From assembly GCA_016183985.1 (NCBI GenBank), contig JACPDN010000011.1, positions 1 to 64,000 on the forward strand: 64,000 nucleotides of DNA, given 5' to 3'. The translations under genes and the position numbers were made by a program. The first letter of the stretch is position 1. Each line of letters starts with the position of its first letter. This stretch comes from Pseudomonadota bacterium. Lineage in GTDB: Bacteria > Pseudomonadota > Alphaproteobacteria > Dongiales > Dongiaceae. Positions 32,379 to 47,288 of this stretch are shown one piece after another. Under the pieces are notes generated by a model that was given only the letters and a program-made list of their open reading frames with translations, did no database searches and was not told the origin of the DNA.

Positions 32379-33596
32379 ATGGTGCAAAAATCGAGACTGA
32401 TTGGGGTTGCCTTTATTTCGGCGCTGCTGCTTGCGGGCTGCGGCGAAGAGAAGAAGGAAGCCGAACAGCAATCTTCCGCGGCGACGACCGCGACATCAGA
32501 AGCGGCCAGCACCGCGACCTCTGAAGCTGCCAGCACGGCTACCTCGGAAGCCGCTGCGGCACCCGCCAGCGATGGCGGCAAGCTCAATATCTACAACTGG
32601 TCGGACTATATCGCCGAAGAGACGGTGCCGAATTTCGAGAAAGAAACCGGCATCAAGGTGCAGTACGACGTCTACGATTCGAACGAGATGCTGGAAGCCA
32701 AGCTGATGGCTGGCGGCACCGGCTATGACCTCGTGCATCCGTCCGGCGCCTTCCTCGGCCGCCAGATCGTCGCCGGCATCTACCAGCCGATCGATCCGGC
32801 CAAGATTCCGAACTATAAAAATCTCGATCCGAAGATCATGAAGCTGCTGGCCGCCTTCGACCCGGGCAACAAATATGCCGTGCCATGGTTCTGGGGCACG
32901 ACCGGCGTCGGCTATAACGTCGCTGAAATCAAGAAGCGCATGCCGGATGCCCCGGTGAACAGCCTCGACATCATCTTCAAGCCCGAACTGGCGCAGAAGT
33001 TCGCCGATTGCGGCATCTCAATGCTGGATGCACCGAGCGAAGTGCTGCAGATCGCCCTCAACTATCTCGGCAAGGATCCCTATACCGCCAGCGCCGATGA
33101 TTACGCCGCTGCCGAAAAGCTGTTGATGGGCGTGCGTCCCTATGTGAAGTACTTCCACAGCTCCAGCTACATCAACGACATCGCCAGTGGCAGCATCTGC
33201 CTGTCGCTCGGTTGGTCGGGTGACTTCAGCATCGCTGCGGCGCGCGCTGAAGAAGCCAAGAACAACATCGAGATCTCCTATTCCATCCCGAAAGAAGGCA
33301 CGATCATCTGGATGGACACGATCGCGATGCCGACCGATGCGGTGAATATCGACCAGGCTTATAAGTGGATCAACTACAACCTCGATCCCAAGGTCGCGGC
33401 GGCGAATGCCAATTACGTCGCTTATGGCAGCCCGGTTGCAGCGGCTCTGCCGATGGTCGACAAGGAACTGCTCGACAACCCGAACATCTATCCGCCGGAA
33501 GACGTGCAGGCGCATCTCTTCCCGGACAAGGTGGCGACGCCGGAAGTCGAGCGTTTGCGGACCCGCACTTGGACGAAGATCAAGACCGGCCAATAA
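32379..33596 (+). CDS. polyamine-type ABC transporter substrate-binding lipoprotein (PotF-like), copy 1
   Basis: A 405-aa binding protein. The signal peptide ends in the lipobox LLLAGC (Cys21), so the protein is lipid-anchored. Residues 37-60 are three copies of the 8-residue unit TATSEAAS (last copy ending AAA), from a 24-base tandem repeat at 32487-32558, forming a flexible tether. The binding domain begins with LNIYNWSDYIAEETVPNFEKE and has MEAKLMAGG-like and DLVHPSG segments of PotD/PotF proteins. It delivers putrescine- or spermidine-like ligands to the PotGHI complex downstream. Lipid anchoring is unusual for PotF of Gram-negative bacteria. A terminator follows it. Confidence 0.85.
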   Translation: MVQKSRLIGVAFISALLLAGCGEEKKEAEQQSSAATTATSEAASTATSEAASTATSEAAAAPASDGGKLNIYNWSDYIAEETVPNFEKETGIKVQYDVYDSNEMLEAKLMAGGTGYDLVHPSGAFLGRQIVAGIYQPIDPAKIPNYKNLDPKIMKLLAAFDPGNKYAVPWFWGTTGVGYNVAEIKKRMPDAPVNSLDIIFKPELAQKFADCGISMLDAPSEVLQIALNYLGKDPYTASADDYAAAEKLLMGVRPYVKYFHSSSYINDIASGSICLSLGWSGDFSIAAARAEEAKNNIEISYSIPKEGTIIWMDTIAMPTDAVNIDQAYKWINYNLDPKVAAANANYVAYGSPVAAALPMVDKELLDNPNIYPPEDVQAHLFPDKVATPEVERLRTRTWTKIKTGQ

Positions 33597-33642
33597 GGCA
33601 TCGGTCCTTCAATCTCCAAGTAAGCGATAACATTTTACTTTT

Positions 33643-33677
33643 AACCCCCGCGGATCATTCCGCGGGGGTTCTTTTAT
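33643..33677 (+). terminator. intrinsic terminator after potF-like copy 1
   Basis: AACCCCCGCGG (33643-33653) and CCGCGGGGGTT (33660-33670) pair perfectly around a 6-base loop and are followed by CTTTTATTT. It separates the two binding-protein genes into separate or attenuated transcripts. Confidence 0.85.
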
Positions 33678-33883
33678 TTCGCGACGACCTGTTAATGACG
33701 CTTTGAATCATGAGTCTGACGCTTTGTCTCGCATCCCCATAGCCGCCGAGGGTTGACAGCCAAGGCATCGGCGGGGTCAGATATGAAAAAAATTTAACGA
33801 TGCATAAGCAGGGATGAATCGCGCAAAAAAAGACCGGCGAAACGCTGGCATGTGCGCAGGTTGGGCGTGACGATAAGGGAGTG

Positions 33884-35002
33884 ATGATTGTGCGGAAATC
33901 CGAAGTGACCCGCTTCGCCCTGATGGGTGCGGCGATGGTTTTGGTTGGCTCGATCGCGACCGCCAAGGCCGACGAAGAGAAGCAACTCAACGTCTACAAC
34001 TGGTCCGATTACATCGGCGAGAACACGATCGCTGATTTCGAGAAAGAGACCGGGATCAAGGTCCAGTACGACACCTTCGATGGCAACGAGACACTCGAAG
34101 CCAAGCTGATGACCGGCGGTACCGGCTACGACATCGTCTTCCCGTCTTCGTCTTTCTTTGCCCGCCAGATCAAGATCGGCCTCTTCCACCCGCTCGATAA
34201 AAGCCTGCTGCCGAACCTGAAGAACATGGACCCCAAGATCATGGAGATCTTGTCCAAGGAAGCAGATCCCGGCAATCAGTATGCGCTCCCCTATATGTGG
34301 GGCACCAATGGCTTCTCCTATAACGTCGACGTGATCAAGAAGCTCATGCCGGATGCGCCGCTCGACAGCCTCGCCATGCTTTTCGATCCGAATGTCGTTT
34401 CGAAATTCAAGGAATGCGGCGTCACCTTCCTCGATTCCCCTGAGGACGTCTTCCCGCTGGCACTCGCCTATATGGGGAAAGATCCAACGTCCCAGAAGGA
34501 AGAAGATATCGTCGCCGCCGCGGACATGATCATGAAGGTCCGTCCCTACATCAAGAATTTCGACTCGCAGCAATATCTGACGGCTTTGCCGAATGGCGAG
34601 TATTGCATGTCGATGAGCTGGTCCGGCGACTATGCGACCGCCGCCGCCCGTGCTGAAGAAGCCGGCATCAAGATCAACCTCGCCTATACGATCCCGAAGG
34701 AAGGTACCAACGTCTGGTTCGACGGCATGCTGATCCCGGCTGATGCACCGCACGTAAAGAACGCGCATCTCTTCCTGGATTACATGATGCGGCCAAAGGT
34801 CATTGCCGACGCGACGAACTACACCAACTATGCCAATGCCAACGTCCCGGCGAAGGAATTCGTCAGCAAGGATATCCTTGAGGATCCGGCCGTCTATCCG
34901 ACGGAAGAAGTGATGAAGCGCAGTTTCCCGTCGGTGGTTCGCGACGATAAACTCAGTCGCGTCATCACCCGGGAATGGACACGGGTGAAAACCGGACAGT
35001 AA
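33884..35002 (+). CDS. polyamine-type ABC transporter substrate-binding protein (PotF-like), copy 2
   Basis: About 372 aa with a cleavable Sec signal (FALMGAAMVLVGSIATAKA) and no lipobox. The mature part opens LNVYNWSDYIGENTIADFEKE and is closely similar to the preceding gene over the whole binding domain, including the LEAKLMTGGTGYD and MWGTNGFSYNVD segments. It is the likely cognate partner of the potGHI genes that follow. Start choice is open: AGGGAG (33876-33881) is too near the ATG at 33884 but ideally spaced for the GTG at 33890, two codons in. Confidence 0.88.
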   Translation: MIVRKSEVTRFALMGAAMVLVGSIATAKADEEKQLNVYNWSDYIGENTIADFEKETGIKVQYDTFDGNETLEAKLMTGGTGYDIVFPSSSFFARQIKIGLFHPLDKSLLPNLKNMDPKIMEILSKEADPGNQYALPYMWGTNGFSYNVDVIKKLMPDAPLDSLAMLFDPNVVSKFKECGVTFLDSPEDVFPLALAYMGKDPTSQKEEDIVAAADMIMKVRPYIKNFDSQQYLTALPNGEYCMSMSWSGDYATAAARAEEAGIKINLAYTIPKEGTNVWFDGMLIPADAPHVKNAHLFLDYMMRPKVIADATNYTNYANANVPAKEFVSKDILEDPAVYPTEEVMKRSFPSVVRDDKLSRVITREWTRVKTGQ

Positions 35003-35110: not shown

Positions 35111-36259
35111 ATGGCGGCTGAACGAGCAAGAGCAGAAACGACGACTCAGGTCTGGAACGACCCGAACGCCAAGCCTTATATTCGCATCGAGAACGTCACC
35201 AAGAAGTTCGGCGATTTCGTCGCCGTCAACGACGTCTCGTTGAATATCTACCGTGGCGAACTCTTTGCGCTCCTCGGTGGATCGGGCTGCGGCAAGACCA
35301 CGTTGCTGCGCATGCTCGCCGGCTTCGAACAACCGACCTCCGGCAAGATCTATATCGATGACGTCGACATGGCGGACATCCCGCCCTATGAGCGTCCGAC
35401 AAACATGATGTTCCAGTCATATGCCCTCTTTCCGCATATGACGGTGGAGCAGAACGTCGCCTTCGGCCTGAAGCAGGACAAGACGCCGGCAGAGCAGGTG
35501 AAGACCCGTGTTGGCTCCATTCTCGATATGGTGCAGATGCGCCAATTTGCCCACCGCAAACCGCATCAGCTCTCAGGCGGCCAGCGCCAACGCGTGGCCC
35601 TCGCCCGCTCGCTGGTGAAGGAACCGAAGCTTCTGCTCCTCGACGAACCGCTGGGTGCCCTCGACAAGAAGCTGCGCGAAGCGACCCAGTTCGAAATCAT
35701 GAACATCCAGGACCGCCTCGGCATCACTTTCATCGTCGTGACTCACGACCAGGAAGAAGCGATGACGCTGTCGACCCGGATCGGCGTCATGAACAGCGGC
35801 CAGATCGTTCAGGTCGGCACGCCCAAGGAAATCTACGAATATCCCAACACCAAATTCGTCGCCGACTTCATCGGCTCGGTGAACCTGTTTGAGGGGCACA
35901 TTGTCGAGGACGAGCCCGGCCATGTGCTGATCAGCGCGCCAGAAGCCGGAACGGAGATCTATATCGACCACGGCATTTCATCCGCCCCCGGCGCCAAGGT
36001 CTGGGTCGCGATCCGGCCCGAGAAGATGGATCTCACCAAGAATCGCCCCGACGACAGCGACCGCAACTCGGCGCCCGGTATCGTCAAAGGCATCGCTTAT
36101 ATGGGCAACCTTTCCGTCTATCTGATCAAGCTGGATAGCGGCAAGGAAGTCAAAGTGACCATGTCGAACCAGCGGCGTGCTGCCGAACACGCGATCGATT
36201 GGGATGACCGGGTCTACGTCACCTGGCATGCCAACAGCCCCGTCGCCTTGCTGAGCTGA
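35111..36259 (+). CDS. potG: putrescine-type ABC transporter ATP-binding protein
   Basis: A 382-aa ATPase with all motifs intact: Walker A GGSGCGKTT (about 58-66), Q-loop MMFQSYALFPHMT, signature LSGGQRQRVALARS, Walker B LLLLDEPLGALD and switch His in VVTHDQEEAM. The C-terminal TOBE region follows (VWVAIRPEKMDL), as in PotG/PotA. It powers the PotH/PotI permease. It provides a direct contrast to the degenerate ATPase encoded at 43137. potH starts 9 bases after its stop. Confidence 0.92.
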   Translation: MAAERARAETTTQVWNDPNAKPYIRIENVTKKFGDFVAVNDVSLNIYRGELFALLGGSGCGKTTLLRMLAGFEQPTSGKIYIDDVDMADIPPYERPTNMMFQSYALFPHMTVEQNVAFGLKQDKTPAEQVKTRVGSILDMVQMRQFAHRKPHQLSGGQRQRVALARSLVKEPKLLLLDEPLGALDKKLREATQFEIMNIQDRLGITFIVVTHDQEEAMTLSTRIGVMNSGQIVQVGTPKEIYEYPNTKFVADFIGSVNLFEGHIVEDEPGHVLISAPEAGTEIYIDHGISSAPGAKVWVAIRPEKMDLTKNRPDDSDRNSAPGIVKGIAYMGNLSVYLIKLDSGKEVKVTMSNQRRAAEHAIDWDDRVYVTWHANSPVALLS

Positions 36260-42786: not shown

Positions 42787-43134
42787 ATGCCGCCGAAGAA
42801 GAACCCGCTCAACCTCAATGCGCTGCAATTGAAGACCCTGACACTGTTCCAGGCGCTCTCGGGTCTCGAAGGCTATGCCGTGCCGGCTGAAGAGGCTGGC
42901 CACACGCTGATCCAGCGCCTGCCACATGCCCATGGCGATCATTTCCATCTCGGCCCCTGGGTGCTCTCAGCCGCCGATTCCACGGGCCTTGCCAACGAAG
43001 CCGCCTGGAAGGCGCTGGAGCGCAAGGGCCTCATCAAGTCAGCGTTCCCGCGCGCCTGCATCCTGACGCCCGAGGGTCACGCTTACGACACGGGCCTCCG
43101 CCAGTCGATGCTGCACGAAGCGCATCATCACTGA
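42787..43134 (+). CDS. conserved hypothetical protein, winged-helix-like
   Basis: A 115-aa soluble protein of unrecognised family. NPLNLNALQLKTLTLFQAL and NEAAWKALERKGLIKSAFPRACILTPEGHAYDTGL give a helix-turn-wing outline, but no diagnostic residues. The tail is His-rich (EAHHH), and an internal LPHAHGDHFHLG is also His-rich, so metal binding is conceivable. It starts 9 bases after the GNAT gene and ends 2 bases before the degenerate ATPase gene, so all are co-expressed. Of note, conserved coupling to the transporter genes has not been tested. Confidence 0.65.
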   Translation: MPPKKNPLNLNALQLKTLTLFQALSGLEGYAVPAEEAGHTLIQRLPHAHGDHFHLGPWVLSAADSTGLANEAAWKALERKGLIKSAFPRACILTPEGHAYDTGLRQSMLHEAHHH

Positions 43135-43136
43135 GT

Positions 43137-44231
43137 ATGTCGGCACCGAGCCATCTCGACCTGCGCGATCTGACGGCGGGAGAAGCCGCTGCGGCACTTG
43201 ATGGCTACTCGGCACAGCTCGCGCGTGGGTCTTTCTTTGCACTCGTCGCAAGCGCGCCGGAGGTGCTCGGCACTGCCGTCAATCTCATCGCCGGTTTTGC
43301 GCGGCCGCGCCATGGCCGCATCCTGATCGACGGCAAGGATCTGGGCCTGCGCACCCCTGGCGAGCGCGGTGTCATGACGGTGCGGGCGCATCTTGCCCTC
43401 TTTCCCCACCTCACTTTGCGCGCCAACATCGCCTTTCCGCTGGAACAGCGCGGCCATGATCGGTCCGAGATCGCGGCAAGGGTCGACCGCCTAGCGGAGG
43501 AATGCGGCCTCGCCACTGAGCTCCTCGGCCGTCTACCAGCAAACCTCACCGCCGAGCAGAAATTGCGCGGTGCCCTCGCCCGCGCCATCGCCGGGGAGCC
43601 CGAAATCCTGGTGCTCGAACGCCCGTTGCAGGCGCTGCCTCCCGCCGCACGCCATGCCTTCCTGCCGGAACTAAAACGGCTCCATCGCCAATTCAACCTC
43701 ACGACGCTGTTTGCGACCGACGACCTTTCAGAGGCGATGGCCGTCGCCGATACCATCTCCGTCATTGCCGATGGCCGCGAAGTCCAGCTCGGCAAGGCGG
43801 AGGAATTGTTCGGTCGGCCCGCAAGCGCTGCGGTAGCGCGGCTCGCCGGCCCCTGCAACCTGCTGCCGGTCGAGGCCGACATGCAAGAGAGCAAGGCCCT
43901 CCTTCGTTCACCCTTGCTGCAATCCGGCGGCGGCGAATTGGGGCGCGAGCGTTGCCATCCGCAGCTCACAAGCGGCCCGGCCCTGCTGCTGATACGCCCC
44001 GAGGTCGTGCGTCCCTTTCTCGGCATCCGCCGCTTCGATCTCCTCACCGACGGCACGATCGCCGACGTCATGCCGCACGGCACCAACACGCGCATCCATG
44101 TCACCGTCGAAGGCTTTGCCCCGGGCATCATCGCCGAGATCCCATCGCCGGCACCCTTTCCACTCGAAAGCGGCAGACGCGTGACGCTAGGCTGGAATCG
44201 TGCCGATTCTTATTTGCTGCCGGTATCATGA
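43137..44231 (+). CDS. degenerate ABC transporter ATP-binding protein (pseudo-ATPase) with TOBE-like domain
   Basis: A 364-aa protein with the full length and layout of a PotA/PotG-type ATPase but no ATP-site motif intact. The Walker A region after FFAL is VASAPEVLGTA (37-47) instead of GPSGCGKTT. The signature is NLTAEQKLRGALARA (136-150) instead of LSGGQ. Walker B is ILVLERPLQAL (157-167), losing the DE pair. The switch His is Asp195 (ATDDLSEAM). The aromatic D-loop and Q-loop are also altered. The TOBE part with LLIRPEVVRPF survives. The frame is open and ATGA-coupled to two permease genes, so it is probably maintained as a structural or regulatory subunit, not a pseudogene. The neighbouring potG could supply ATPase activity (inference). 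Confidence 0.8.
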   Translation: MSAPSHLDLRDLTAGEAAAALDGYSAQLARGSFFALVASAPEVLGTAVNLIAGFARPRHGRILIDGKDLGLRTPGERGVMTVRAHLALFPHLTLRANIAFPLEQRGHDRSEIAARVDRLAEECGLATELLGRLPANLTAEQKLRGALARAIAGEPEILVLERPLQALPPAARHAFLPELKRLHRQFNLTTLFATDDLSEAMAVADTISVIADGREVQLGKAEELFGRPASAAVARLAGPCNLLPVEADMQESKALLRSPLLQSGGGELGRERCHPQLTSGPALLLIRPEVVRPFLGIRRFDLLTDGTIADVMPHGTNTRIHVTVEGFAPGIIAEIPSPAPFPLESGRRVTLGWNRADSYLLPVS

Positions 44232-45064
44232 CGGCAAGCGGCGACAACACCGCCTTGCCGCTGCGCGGACCACTTGCTGGTCTCGCCTGGACCTCGCTGC
44301 TCCTTCAGGTCGCTATCTTCGCCGCACCCTTGGCTCTTGTCCTCTGGCTGAGCCTCCTTGCCGCCACAGAGGCACCGGGCGATCTGTCGCTGACGGCTTG
44401 GACCAGCCTGCTCGCCTCGCCCCAGGCGCGCGCCGCATTGTTCAGCAGCATCCTGCTGGCAGCCCTGACAGCATTGGGGGCGACGTTGCTCGCAACGCCT
44501 CTCGCCTTTCTCATCGCGGTTCGCGGCCGCGTTCTCGGTCGCGTGGCGCTCGGCTTCGTTATCGTCATGTGGTTCTTCGATCCCGGCCTGCGCATCCTGG
44601 GTTGGATGCAGGCTTTCAAGGATCTGGCGATGCTGGAGATCCTGCCCGCATCGATTCTCGGTGGCTTCGTCGCCGAACTGATCGCCAGCGTCCATGCCTG
44701 GCTCCCGCTTGGCATCCTGGTTCTCGCCCTCGCCTTCGGCCAAGTCGATACCGAGCTGTTGCGTACCGCGCGAGAATGCGGCGCCACCAGCATCACTTTG
44801 CTTCGCCGCATTTTGTGGCCGCTTTGCCACCGTGCCGTTGCCCTTTCGGCGGTGCTGGTCTTCAGTGGTGCGATCGGCAGTTTCCTGGAGCCCCGCCTCC
44901 TCGGCACCGGTGAGTTCGAACAGGCCAGCGAATGGCTGCAGCGTGCCTTGGAAAGTGAGACCGGCTGGCCTTACGCCGCCGCCATGTTGATCCTCATGCT
45001 TGTACTCGCCGCGCTCCCGCTCGTCGCACTGACGCTCCTCCATCAGCGAAAGGCGCGCCGATGA
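44228..45064 (+). CDS. ABC transporter permease, PotB/PotH-like
   Basis: A 278-aa inner-membrane protein with about six hydrophobic segments. The EAA coupling loop is TELLRTARECGATSITLLRRILWPLCH, with the conserved Gly and Pro. ILGWMQAFKDLAML is a PotB-like periplasmic stretch. Its ATG overlaps the stop of the degenerate ATPase gene, and its own stop overlaps the next permease start, so the three are translated together. The upstream open frame from 43952 is a shadow. No substrate-binding protein gene is in this operon. Confidence 0.82.
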   Translation: MTASGDNTALPLRGPLAGLAWTSLLLQVAIFAAPLALVLWLSLLAATEAPGDLSLTAWTSLLASPQARAALFSSILLAALTALGATLLATPLAFLIAVRGRVLGRVALGFVIVMWFFDPGLRILGWMQAFKDLAMLEILPASILGGFVAELIASVHAWLPLGILVLALAFGQVDTELLRTARECGATSITLLRRILWPLCHRAVALSAVLVFSGAIGSFLEPRLLGTGEFEQASEWLQRALESETGWPYAAAMLILMLVLAALPLVALTLLHQRKARR

Positions 45065-45861
45065 TCCGCCGCGTCAATCGCTTTTCCGGTGCACTGCTCC
45101 ACTTTGCCTCGTCATTGCTGGTACTGTTCCTGCTGCTGCCGGTCGGCGCCATCTTCGGTCTCGGCCTCTATTACACACTGGGCATTTTCCTTGTCGCGGA
45201 CACGAGCCAGATGATGGCGGCGCTCGGCAAGGAATCCGGCATCGCACCGGCACTCGCGGAAACGCCGCTCATCGCGCTTGCCGTCATGATCCTGGCTAGC
45301 GCCTGGGGCCTCGCCTTGTCGCTGTTGTGGCGACGCTGGATCCGCAACCGTCGCTACCTGCCGCTGCTCGCATCGGCATTGCCATTCCTGCTGCCGCGCT
45401 TTGGCCTTGGGGCACTCTTCCTCCTCGCCTGTCTCAAGCTTGCGCAATGGGGCGGCAATGCACTGGGCCTGACACTGGTGGCGCTCGCCCAAGCAGCCGT
45501 CGCGGCACCGCTTGTGGCGGCGATCCTGTGCCTGGGTTGGCAGCGTGTCGATCCTGCCTGGCGCGCCGCAGCACGCGAAGCCGGCGCCGATGAGGTGACG
45601 GTATTCCGCCGCCTCACATGGCCGGTCTTGAAGCCCTATATGATGTTCGGCGCCCTCATCGCTTTCATCCTGTCGCTGGGTGATTTTTACCTTGGCAACA
45701 GCCTCTCCGGCGATGCCGTGCTTCTGCCCGGCGCCATCCTCTCCGGGGTCGCCCAGAACGCCTCACCGCTCTATCATGCGCTGGTCGCCCTGATGGTTCT
45801 GGTCGACATCGCCCTCTTCATTTTTGTTACCCGCAGCCTCAAACGGCTTAACCTGATCTAG
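45061..45861 (+). CDS. ABC transporter permease, PotC/PotI-like
   Basis: A 266-aa inner-membrane protein with six hydrophobic segments. The EAA loop is AWRAAAREAGADEVTVFRRLTWPVLKP, and the closing segment LSLGDFYLGNSLSGDAVLLPGAIL matches the PotC SLDDF-type region. It forms a heterodimer with the preceding permease (inference from the standard architecture). The amidase gene starts 14 bases after its stop. Confidence 0.82.
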   Translation: MIRRVNRFSGALLHFASSLLVLFLLLPVGAIFGLGLYYTLGIFLVADTSQMMAALGKESGIAPALAETPLIALAVMILASAWGLALSLLWRRWIRNRRYLPLLASALPFLLPRFGLGALFLLACLKLAQWGGNALGLTLVALAQAAVAAPLVAAILCLGWQRVDPAWRAAAREAGADEVTVFRRLTWPVLKPYMMFGALIAFILSLGDFYLGNSLSGDAVLLPGAILSGVAQNASPLYHALVALMVLVDIALFIFVTRSLKRLNLI

Positions 45862-45875
45862 AATGGATTCACGCT

Positions 45876-47288
45876 GTGACTGATCTTGATCTCTGCTTCA
45901 CGCCCGCCACGGAGCTTGCCGCTCGCATCCGCGCCGGCACGCTCTCGCCGGTCACCATCGTCGAGAATGCACTGGTACGCATTGCCGAGGTGAACCCGGC
46001 GCTCAATTGCTTCTGCTTCGTCTATGCCGATGAAGCGCGGGCGCTGGCAAAGCAGATGGAGGCGGAAGCCAAGGCCGGCCACTTCCGCGGGCCGCTGCAC
46101 GGCGTGCCCTATGCCTTGAAGGATCTCACGCCGACCAAGGGCAAGCGCACGACCCTCGGCTCCTATGCCTATGAACATTGGGTGCCCGATCACGACGCGC
46201 CGATTGCCGAGGCGCTGGCGGGTGCCGGCGGCATCCTCATCGGCAAGACGACGACGCCCGAATTCGCCTATTCGAGCTTTACCGAGAGTCCGCTTTGGGG
46301 CATCACCCGCAACCCCTGGAACAAGGAGCGCACGGCCGGCGGCTCTTCCGGCGGGTCGGGGGCCGCTGTCGCCAGTGGCTGCGTGCCTTTTGCCGAAGGC
46401 TCCGACATGGGCGGCTCGGTGCGCATTCCGGCAAGCTTCTGCGGCATCGTCGGCCTGAAACCGAGCTTCGGCCGCATCCCCTTCACCATCCTGCCCAGCC
46501 AATACGACCAGCTGTCGCATTTCGGCCCCCTCGCCCGCACCATCGGCGACGCCTGCCTCTTCATGCAGATCACGCAAGGGCCGGATGATCGCGACATCCA
46601 ATCGCTCACCACGCCGCTCGACTTCACCGGCCCGCTGCCCAGCGATGTCAAAGGCAAGCATCTCGCTTTGCTGCTCAAGGTCGGCAATCACATATGGCAC
46701 CCGGAAGTCGAAGCTGCCGTGCGCCGTGCCGCCGACACCTTCGCCAAGGCTGGTGCCATCATCGAGGAAGTCGAGCTTCCCTGGGGCAAGGACGAAGACG
46801 AGTTGTGGTCGGCGCATTGGGGGGTCTATCTCGCCACCTTCTTCGGCCATGTGCTGAAAGATTATCGCGCCAAGATGGATCCCAATGTCGTGCGCCTCAT
46901 CGAAAACGGCTTCGCCATGAATGCGGTCGAATTCAAGAAGATCGAGATCGTGCGCACGCGTATGTGGGGTGAGATCCAGCCGATCCTCGCCCGCAACGAC
47001 GCGATCCTCACCGGCACCATGTGCCAGCCGGCGGCCAAGGTCGGCCGCAACGACGCCGAATACTGGCAGCTCGATGCCCAAGGCGGCTACCGCGCCCTCG
47101 ACTTCACCTCCGTCTGGAACTTCGTCAGCCCCTGCCCGGCGTTGTCCGTACCGGCGGGCCTTACGTCAGACAAATTGCCGATCGGCCTCCAAATGATCGG
47201 CCGCCGCCATGACGATCTCGGCGTTCTCGGCCTCGGCGCCGCTCTGGAAAAGCTGCAGCCCTGGTGGGATCAGCGCCCGCCCGTCTGA
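45876..47288 (+). CDS. amidase-signature family hydrolase
   Basis: A 470-aa serine amidase. The Ser-cisSer-Lys triad is in place: Lys82 in PYALKDLTPTKG, the cis-Ser in GGSSGGSGAAVASG (155-168) and nucleophile Ser181 in DMGGSVRIPASFCG. It resembles the stand-alone amidases that cleave small amides rather than GatA, because there are no gatB/gatC genes nearby. The start is a GTG at 45876. It is the last gene of the run that includes the pseudo-ATPase and two permeases, so its substrate may be what that membrane complex handles (inference). Confidence 0.85.
   Translation: MTDLDLCFTPATELAARIRAGTLSPVTIVENALVRIAEVNPALNCFCFVYADEARALAKQMEAEAKAGHFRGPLHGVPYALKDLTPTKGKRTTLGSYAYEHWVPDHDAPIAEALAGAGGILIGKTTTPEFAYSSFTESPLWGITRNPWNKERTAGGSSGGSGAAVASGCVPFAEGSDMGGSVRIPASFCGIVGLKPSFGRIPFTILPSQYDQLSHFGPLARTIGDACLFMQITQGPDDRDIQSLTTPLDFTGPLPSDVKGKHLALLLKVGNHIWHPEVEAAVRRAADTFAKAGAIIEEVELPWGKDEDELWSAHWGVYLATFFGHVLKDYRAKMDPNVVRLIENGFAMNAVEFKKIEIVRTRMWGEIQPILARNDAILTGTMCQPAAKVGRNDAEYWQLDAQGGYRALDFTSVWNFVSPCPALSVPAGLTSDKLPIGLQMIGRRHDDLGVLGLGAALEKLQPWWDQRPPV

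Follow-up and report, generated by a model that had tools for sequence, protein, structure and literature searches.

The window, that is, the whole stretch of 64,000 nucleotides analysed here, comes from a genome of the genus Dongia and carries a forward-strand operon in which the gene for a protein of the ABC ATPase fold is followed by two permease genes (permA and permB) and, close downstream, by an amidase gene (Table 1). The first-pass annotation of this DNA had described the transporter genes as coupled by overlaps, and these are present at both junctions of the window, the stop and start sharing 4 bases between ATPase and permA and another 4 between permA and permB. A 4-base permA/permB overlap is possible in all six genomes that carry the operon, and the ATPase/permA overlap amounts to 1 or 4 bases in five of them; in the sixth (G006), the two genes either overlap by 4 bases with a TTG start or lie 2 bases apart with an ATG start. 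The annotation had also stated that no binding protein accompanies the operon. Indeed, the interval from yajQ to the TPP-enzyme gene showed none, and three binding-protein queries run over the neighbourhoods matched only the genes ahead of PotG, the nearest being at 32379-35002; a cognate binding protein might be encoded at an unlinked site. The region at 32379-35002 encodes a tandem of two PotF-like binding proteins, of which the first begins like a lipoprotein. A specific link of the operon to this lipoprotein-type protein was ruled out, as operon-less relatives have the same tandem pair. PotG itself (35111-36259) is intact, with 11 of 11 catalytic residues.

Table 1. Positions in the window of the transporter and amidase genes and of segments of the pseudo-ATPase.
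Feature	Coordinates	Strand	Observations
Pseudo-ATPase gene, 364 aa	43137..44231	+	MalK/PotA-type fold (predicted); every ATP-site motif degenerate
Former Walker A, residues 38-45	43248..43271	+	canonical G..G.GK[ST] gone in 6/6; invariant positions 0/8
Former Q-loop Phe-Gln, residues 83-84	43383..43388	+	Arg83 invariant in 6/6; Gln gone in 6/6
Residues 86-90 (LALFP)	43392..43406	+	kept hydrophobic part of cleft; MalK equivalent takes permease coupling helix
Former signature, residues 137-141 (LTAEQ)	43545..43559	+	Glu140 invariant in 6/6
Former Walker B Asp-Glu, residues 161-162 (E-R)	43617..43622	+	Glu161 invariant in 6/6
Former switch His, residue 195	43719..43721	+	Asp in 5 orthologues, Asn in 1
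Residues 291-313, C-terminal (TOBE) part	44007..44075	+	18/23 invariant in six; 6/23 in six intact paralogues
permA, 278 aa, type I importer membrane domain	44228..45064	+	EAA-type loop ARECGA; conserved stretch 219-250
permB, 266 aa	45061..45861	+	BPD_transp_1; EAA-type loop
Amidase gene, close downstream	45876..47288	+	adjoins in all six carriers; also present without the operon

The residues that the first-pass annotation had given for the degenerate ATP site were right, namely VASAPEVLGTA at 37-47, LTAEQ at 137-141, LVLERP at 158-163 and Asp195, and the reading frame is open over all 364 codons, as had been claimed. Beyond that list, the protein also lacks the Q-loop Gln (A84) and the D-loop Asp (P168). 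When Walker A, Q-loop, signature, Walker B, D-loop and H-switch were scored together as 11 catalytic residues, the six orthologues kept 0, 1, 0, 0, 1 and 0 of them, compared with 11 of 11 in each of 29 intact homologues, which were picked from best matches and include the top match of each of 11 operon-less genomes. The Pfam profile ABC_tran matched the pseudo-ATPase with 37.2 bits, the match not beginning until profile position 26, and a TOBE_2 match of 28.5 bits bears out the earlier statement that the TOBE part is kept. None of the NCBIfam cut-offs was reached (best TIGR01187, 162.7 bits against a cut-off of 355.6), and by curated score the protein therefore falls outside the PotA/PotG polyamine ATPase family. 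The window's own genome contains 135 ABC_tran matches (150 of 199 candidates scored), only two of which start beyond profile position 12: the pseudo-ATPase (26) and one in a 977-aa frame (76). Given this rarity and the recurrence of the losses in five other genomes, the truncated match is not due to chance. The AlphaFold model of the pseudo-ATPase (pLDDT 91.9, pTM 0.85) aligned with MalK (3puz_A) over 350 residues with a Z score of 37.5 and an rmsd of 2.1; on the strength of this confidence and alignment the fold is judged complete, the model comprising a RecA-like domain, a helical domain and a C-terminal OB/TOBE domain, i.e. the predicted fold is the whole of MalK/PotA.

Orthologues were sought in a sample of the order consisting of 17 genomes, 7 of Dongia and 10 of other genera. 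The pseudo-ATPase is present in 6 of the 7 Dongia genomes, the window's own included, with identities of 83, 71, 69, 56 and 54%; the seventh (G005) lacks the operon, and the 10 genomes of other genera likewise have no orthologue. A class-wide search of 289 genomes at E 1e-60 matched in 4 only, all Dongia, and left the other 285 without an orthologue at that threshold. The search with permease B (385 class genomes, 1e-26) also gave 4 matches, in the same four Dongia genomes. A pattern scan of GTDB 220 contigs returned 76 loci, 4 of them at more than 50% identity and all of these in the same genus set; among the other 72, motifs were checked in 4. No intact orthologue was found in other genera, the top hits in the 11 genomes of the order that lack the operon being intact homologues at 30-36% identity. 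The first-pass annotation had proposed looking for orthologues with the same losses and neighbours, and had named orthologues with intact motifs as the finding that would speak against it. All six orthologues proved degenerate, none with intact motifs was found, and the same two permeases and the amidase accompany each of them. The ATPase is dead yet conserved in most sequenced members of Dongia.

Over the six genomes, dN/dS (omega) of the pseudo-ATPase gene was 0.128, with 0.127 and 0.160 for two pairs (dS about 0.8), and none of the six frames contained an internal stop. The corresponding six-genome values were 0.168 for permA, 0.108 for permB, 0.072 for the amidase and 0.084 for the intact paralogue. 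The check on dN/dS that had been suggested for this gene thus gave a value not near 1. By domain, omega of the nucleotide-binding domain (NBD) was 0.110 in the pseudo-ATPase versus 0.045 in the intact paralogue, and that of the C-terminal part 0.157 versus 0.143; the NBD is relaxed about 2.4-fold, which is still well short of neutral evolution, and constraint on the C-terminal part equals that in its intact counterpart. A value of 0.034 obtained for just the 18 catalytic codons carries no weight, the tree length of 37 indicating saturation. Decay in one lineage is ruled out by omega and the open frames, and these also refute, in the main, the broader reading of a former importer in the process of being lost. 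What could be cited for such decay is the loss of all motifs, the higher omega of the NBD relative to the intact paralogue and the one Dongia genome without the operon; the overall omega, the persistence of open frames across six genomes with identities down to 54%, the kept synteny and overlaps and the appearance of new invariant residues count against it, and we consider it very improbable.

Constraint within the protein has moved: the P-loop drifts, and ALFP, R83, E140, E161 and residues 291-313 are conserved. The most conserved 20-residue windows of the pseudo-ATPase lie in 291-313, plus one at 338, as opposed to the NBD in the six intact paralogues. Three positions are substituted and yet invariant in all six orthologues, R83 (the Phe of the Q-loop pair), E140 (the second Gly of the signature) and E161 (the Asp of Walker B). 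Their invariance, set against the drifting P-loop, would be expected if these residues formed a new ligand site on the old frame, but it may also be structural, and the lack of a single invariant position among the eight of Walker A argues against a phosphate or ligand site there; a rebuilt site is accordingly regarded as quite unlikely.

Both permeases matched BPD_transp_1, permA with 38.7 bits and permB with 27.4 bits, just over the cut-off of 26.4. The permA model, of middling confidence (pLDDT 70), matched SugB (Z 17.5), ModB (Z 16.7) and PotC (Z 16.1), and permA is predicted on this basis to have the type I importer fold. Counts of hydropathy spans vary among orthologues (permA 4 to 7, permB 5 to 6) and prove nothing. 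The EAA loops noted in the first-pass annotation were confirmed as a conserved feature, an EAA-type loop with Gly and a W-P pair being kept by both permeases in all six genomes, and 26 of the 32 positions of permA 219-250 are invariant (five sequences). On the ATPase side, all six orthologues share residues 87-90 (ALFP), which are nearly invariant in the intact set too. The permease coupling helix is taken up by F81-Y87 of MalK, according to an excerpt of PMC7658222, and this segment corresponds to residues 83-89 of the pseudo-ATPase. The dock is not wholly conserved, since the invariant Arg83 replaces MalK Phe81 within the cleft.

With their EAA-type loops kept, the permeases might take their power from an intact ATPase of another locus (PotG at 35111, the contig 13 paralogue described below, or a further one), as in MsmX systems, the pseudo-ATPase then modulating that motor or competing with it for the dock. 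Candidates are plentiful: the genome has 135 ABC_tran matches, PotG is encoded 8 kb from the operon, and contig 13 carries a paralogous operon that is complete. Moreover, type I importers are known to share ATPases (part of PMC7658222). However, the pseudo-ATPase and permease genes overlap, so that the docks should be filled by the pseudo-ATPase, and neither site of a mixed dimer would be complete: the intact partner would give Walker A and Walker B, but the facing signature is gone. A borrowed motor is considered unlikely.

The gene order in the six carriers is 115-aa gene, pseudo-ATPase, permA, permB, amidase and TPP-enzyme gene; a GNAT gene was found in 4 of the 6 (in G006 the contig begins downstream of the GNAT position). 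The 115-aa gene (42787-43134), next to yajQ, encodes a His-rich protein without a Pfam or NCBIfam match that occurs in each of the 17 genomes sampled from the order and is thus a conserved unknown. In the 11 operon-less genomes of the order, the stretch around this gene gave no match to the three operon genes at 1e-10. The distance from the 115-aa gene to the amidase is 20-34 bases (between match ends) in four of these, all of one genus; in six, other genes intervene, and in G016 there is no amidase in the stretch. Among the intervening genes, which were scanned in four genomes, G005, G012 and G014 have PhyH, G014 also has the alpha and beta genes of nitrile hydratase, and G015 has an amine oxidase; for G001 and G013 the coverage is limited to ORF lists. 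The PhyH-family dioxygenase genes lie at L154 6885-7700, L155 3937-4851 and L161 9937-10809, and the nitrile hydratase beta and alpha genes of G014 at L161 11278-12576, all of them in the interval from the 115-aa gene to the amidase. The latter arrangement hints that the amidase acts after nitrile hydratase in relatives. The proposal that the flanking genes point to a joint complex found no support, because the 115-aa gene and the amidase are joined without the operon in 4 of 11 genomes and GNAT is found in only 4 of 6 carriers; a functional link to yajQ, GNAT or the 115-aa gene is likewise unsupported, given the joined flanks of operon-less genomes and the patchy GNAT. Judging from the arrangements in operon-less relatives, the flanks predate the operon or are independent of it, and since they adjoin without it, the transporter genes entered, or stayed in, an older neighbourhood.

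The closest intact relatives of the ATPase (35% identity) and of the permeases (29% for permB) within the same genome make up one complete operon, on contig 13 (L036), which has an intact ATPase and a binding protein (SBP_bac_8). The pseudo-ATPases form a monophyletic clade with support of 100 and a stem of 1.50 substitutions per site in an unrooted tree. The same three genome pairs are recovered in the pseudo clade and in the paralogue clade, which fits vertical descent within the genus. The unrooted, long-stem tree does not pin down the parent of the pseudo clade.

The idea of a dedicated pseudo-ATPase, put forward in the first-pass annotation, is supported by motifs gone in 6 of 6 orthologues, by omega and by the open frames. 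The operon encodes a subunit with a dead site and a kept fold, under purifying selection and coupled to its permease genes; we infer from this that a complex forms and does ATP-independent work, probably without ATP power of its own. In the form considered here, the pseudo-ATPase clamps and sets a PotBC-like permease pair and hydrolyses no ATP of its own, a reading that we hold to be just short of an even call. Two copies would dock beneath the permease pair via the kept part of the coupling-helix cleft and might stay paired through their C-terminal domains, by analogy with MalK, whose dimer, when free of nucleotide, is joined by these domains alone (PMC3150292). Neither binding nor hydrolysis of ATP is expected at this site, so the assembly would have no ATP-switch cycle, and the pseudo-ATPase would serve as a fixed clamp. 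The newly conserved segment 291-313 could then set the state of the pore through binding of a small ligand or partner, and the complex would act not as a pump but as a receptor or as a gated route of entry driven by a gradient. More specifically, and tentatively, the importer may have turned into an ATP-independent gated channel or receptor with a pseudo-ATPase homodimer, in which the C-terminal domain, not the nucleotide site, controls the permeases. An ATP-less type I importer is expected to rest inward-facing, closed to the outside, and gradient-driven flow would for this reason need a change in the membrane part. Counting against the clamp are the relaxed NBD (about 2.4-fold), the Dongia genome without the operon (G005) and R83 in the dock.

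The MalK C-terminal domain has regulatory partners, and this precedent, together with the constraint in the C-terminal segment and in permA 219-250, is consistent with a complex that senses a periplasmic compound and signals via the C-terminal domain to a cytosolic partner. ABC proteins turned receptor (ABCC8/9) or channel (ABCC7) exist, as an excerpt of PMC7756269 sets out. Such a role in sensing is nevertheless doubtful, with no regulator or binding-protein gene adjoining.

ABC importers are defined by ATP-driven switching. The Dongia lineage provides a natural separation-of-function test of what an importer ATPase does besides hydrolysis, and opens the parts played by docking and by the C-terminal domain to experiment in soil bacteria that are harmless. 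No earlier description of a type I importer with an ATPase of its own devoid of all motifs turned up in a limited search of open-licence papers. The operon resembles the type I importers PotABCD and MalEFGK2 in its two BPD_transp_1 permeases, in the predicted MalK/PotA fold with TOBE, and in its order and coupling of genes, and differs from them in that the ATPase lacks all nucleotide-site motifs and the operon has no binding-protein gene. The closest intact relative in the same genome, the paralogous operon on contig 13, is set apart by its binding protein (SBP_bac_8) and intact ATPase. MsmX-type shared ATPases, as presented in part of PMC7658222, demonstrate that permeases can be served by an ATPase encoded at another locus, but those systems have no ATPase gene of their own, whereas the Dongia operon has one, which is dead. 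Solitary BioY transport is cited in a section of PMC4820897. A degenerate nucleotide site in a structural role is also found in heterodimeric ABC exporters (excerpt of PMC7756269); unlike the Dongia subunit, which keeps neither half, these retain one active site. ABCC7 (a channel) and ABCC8/9 (receptors), covered in the same excerpt, likewise use the ABC architecture for purposes other than pumping, but they are eukaryotic, of exporter type and still bind ATP, whereas the Dongia system is bacterial and of importer type.
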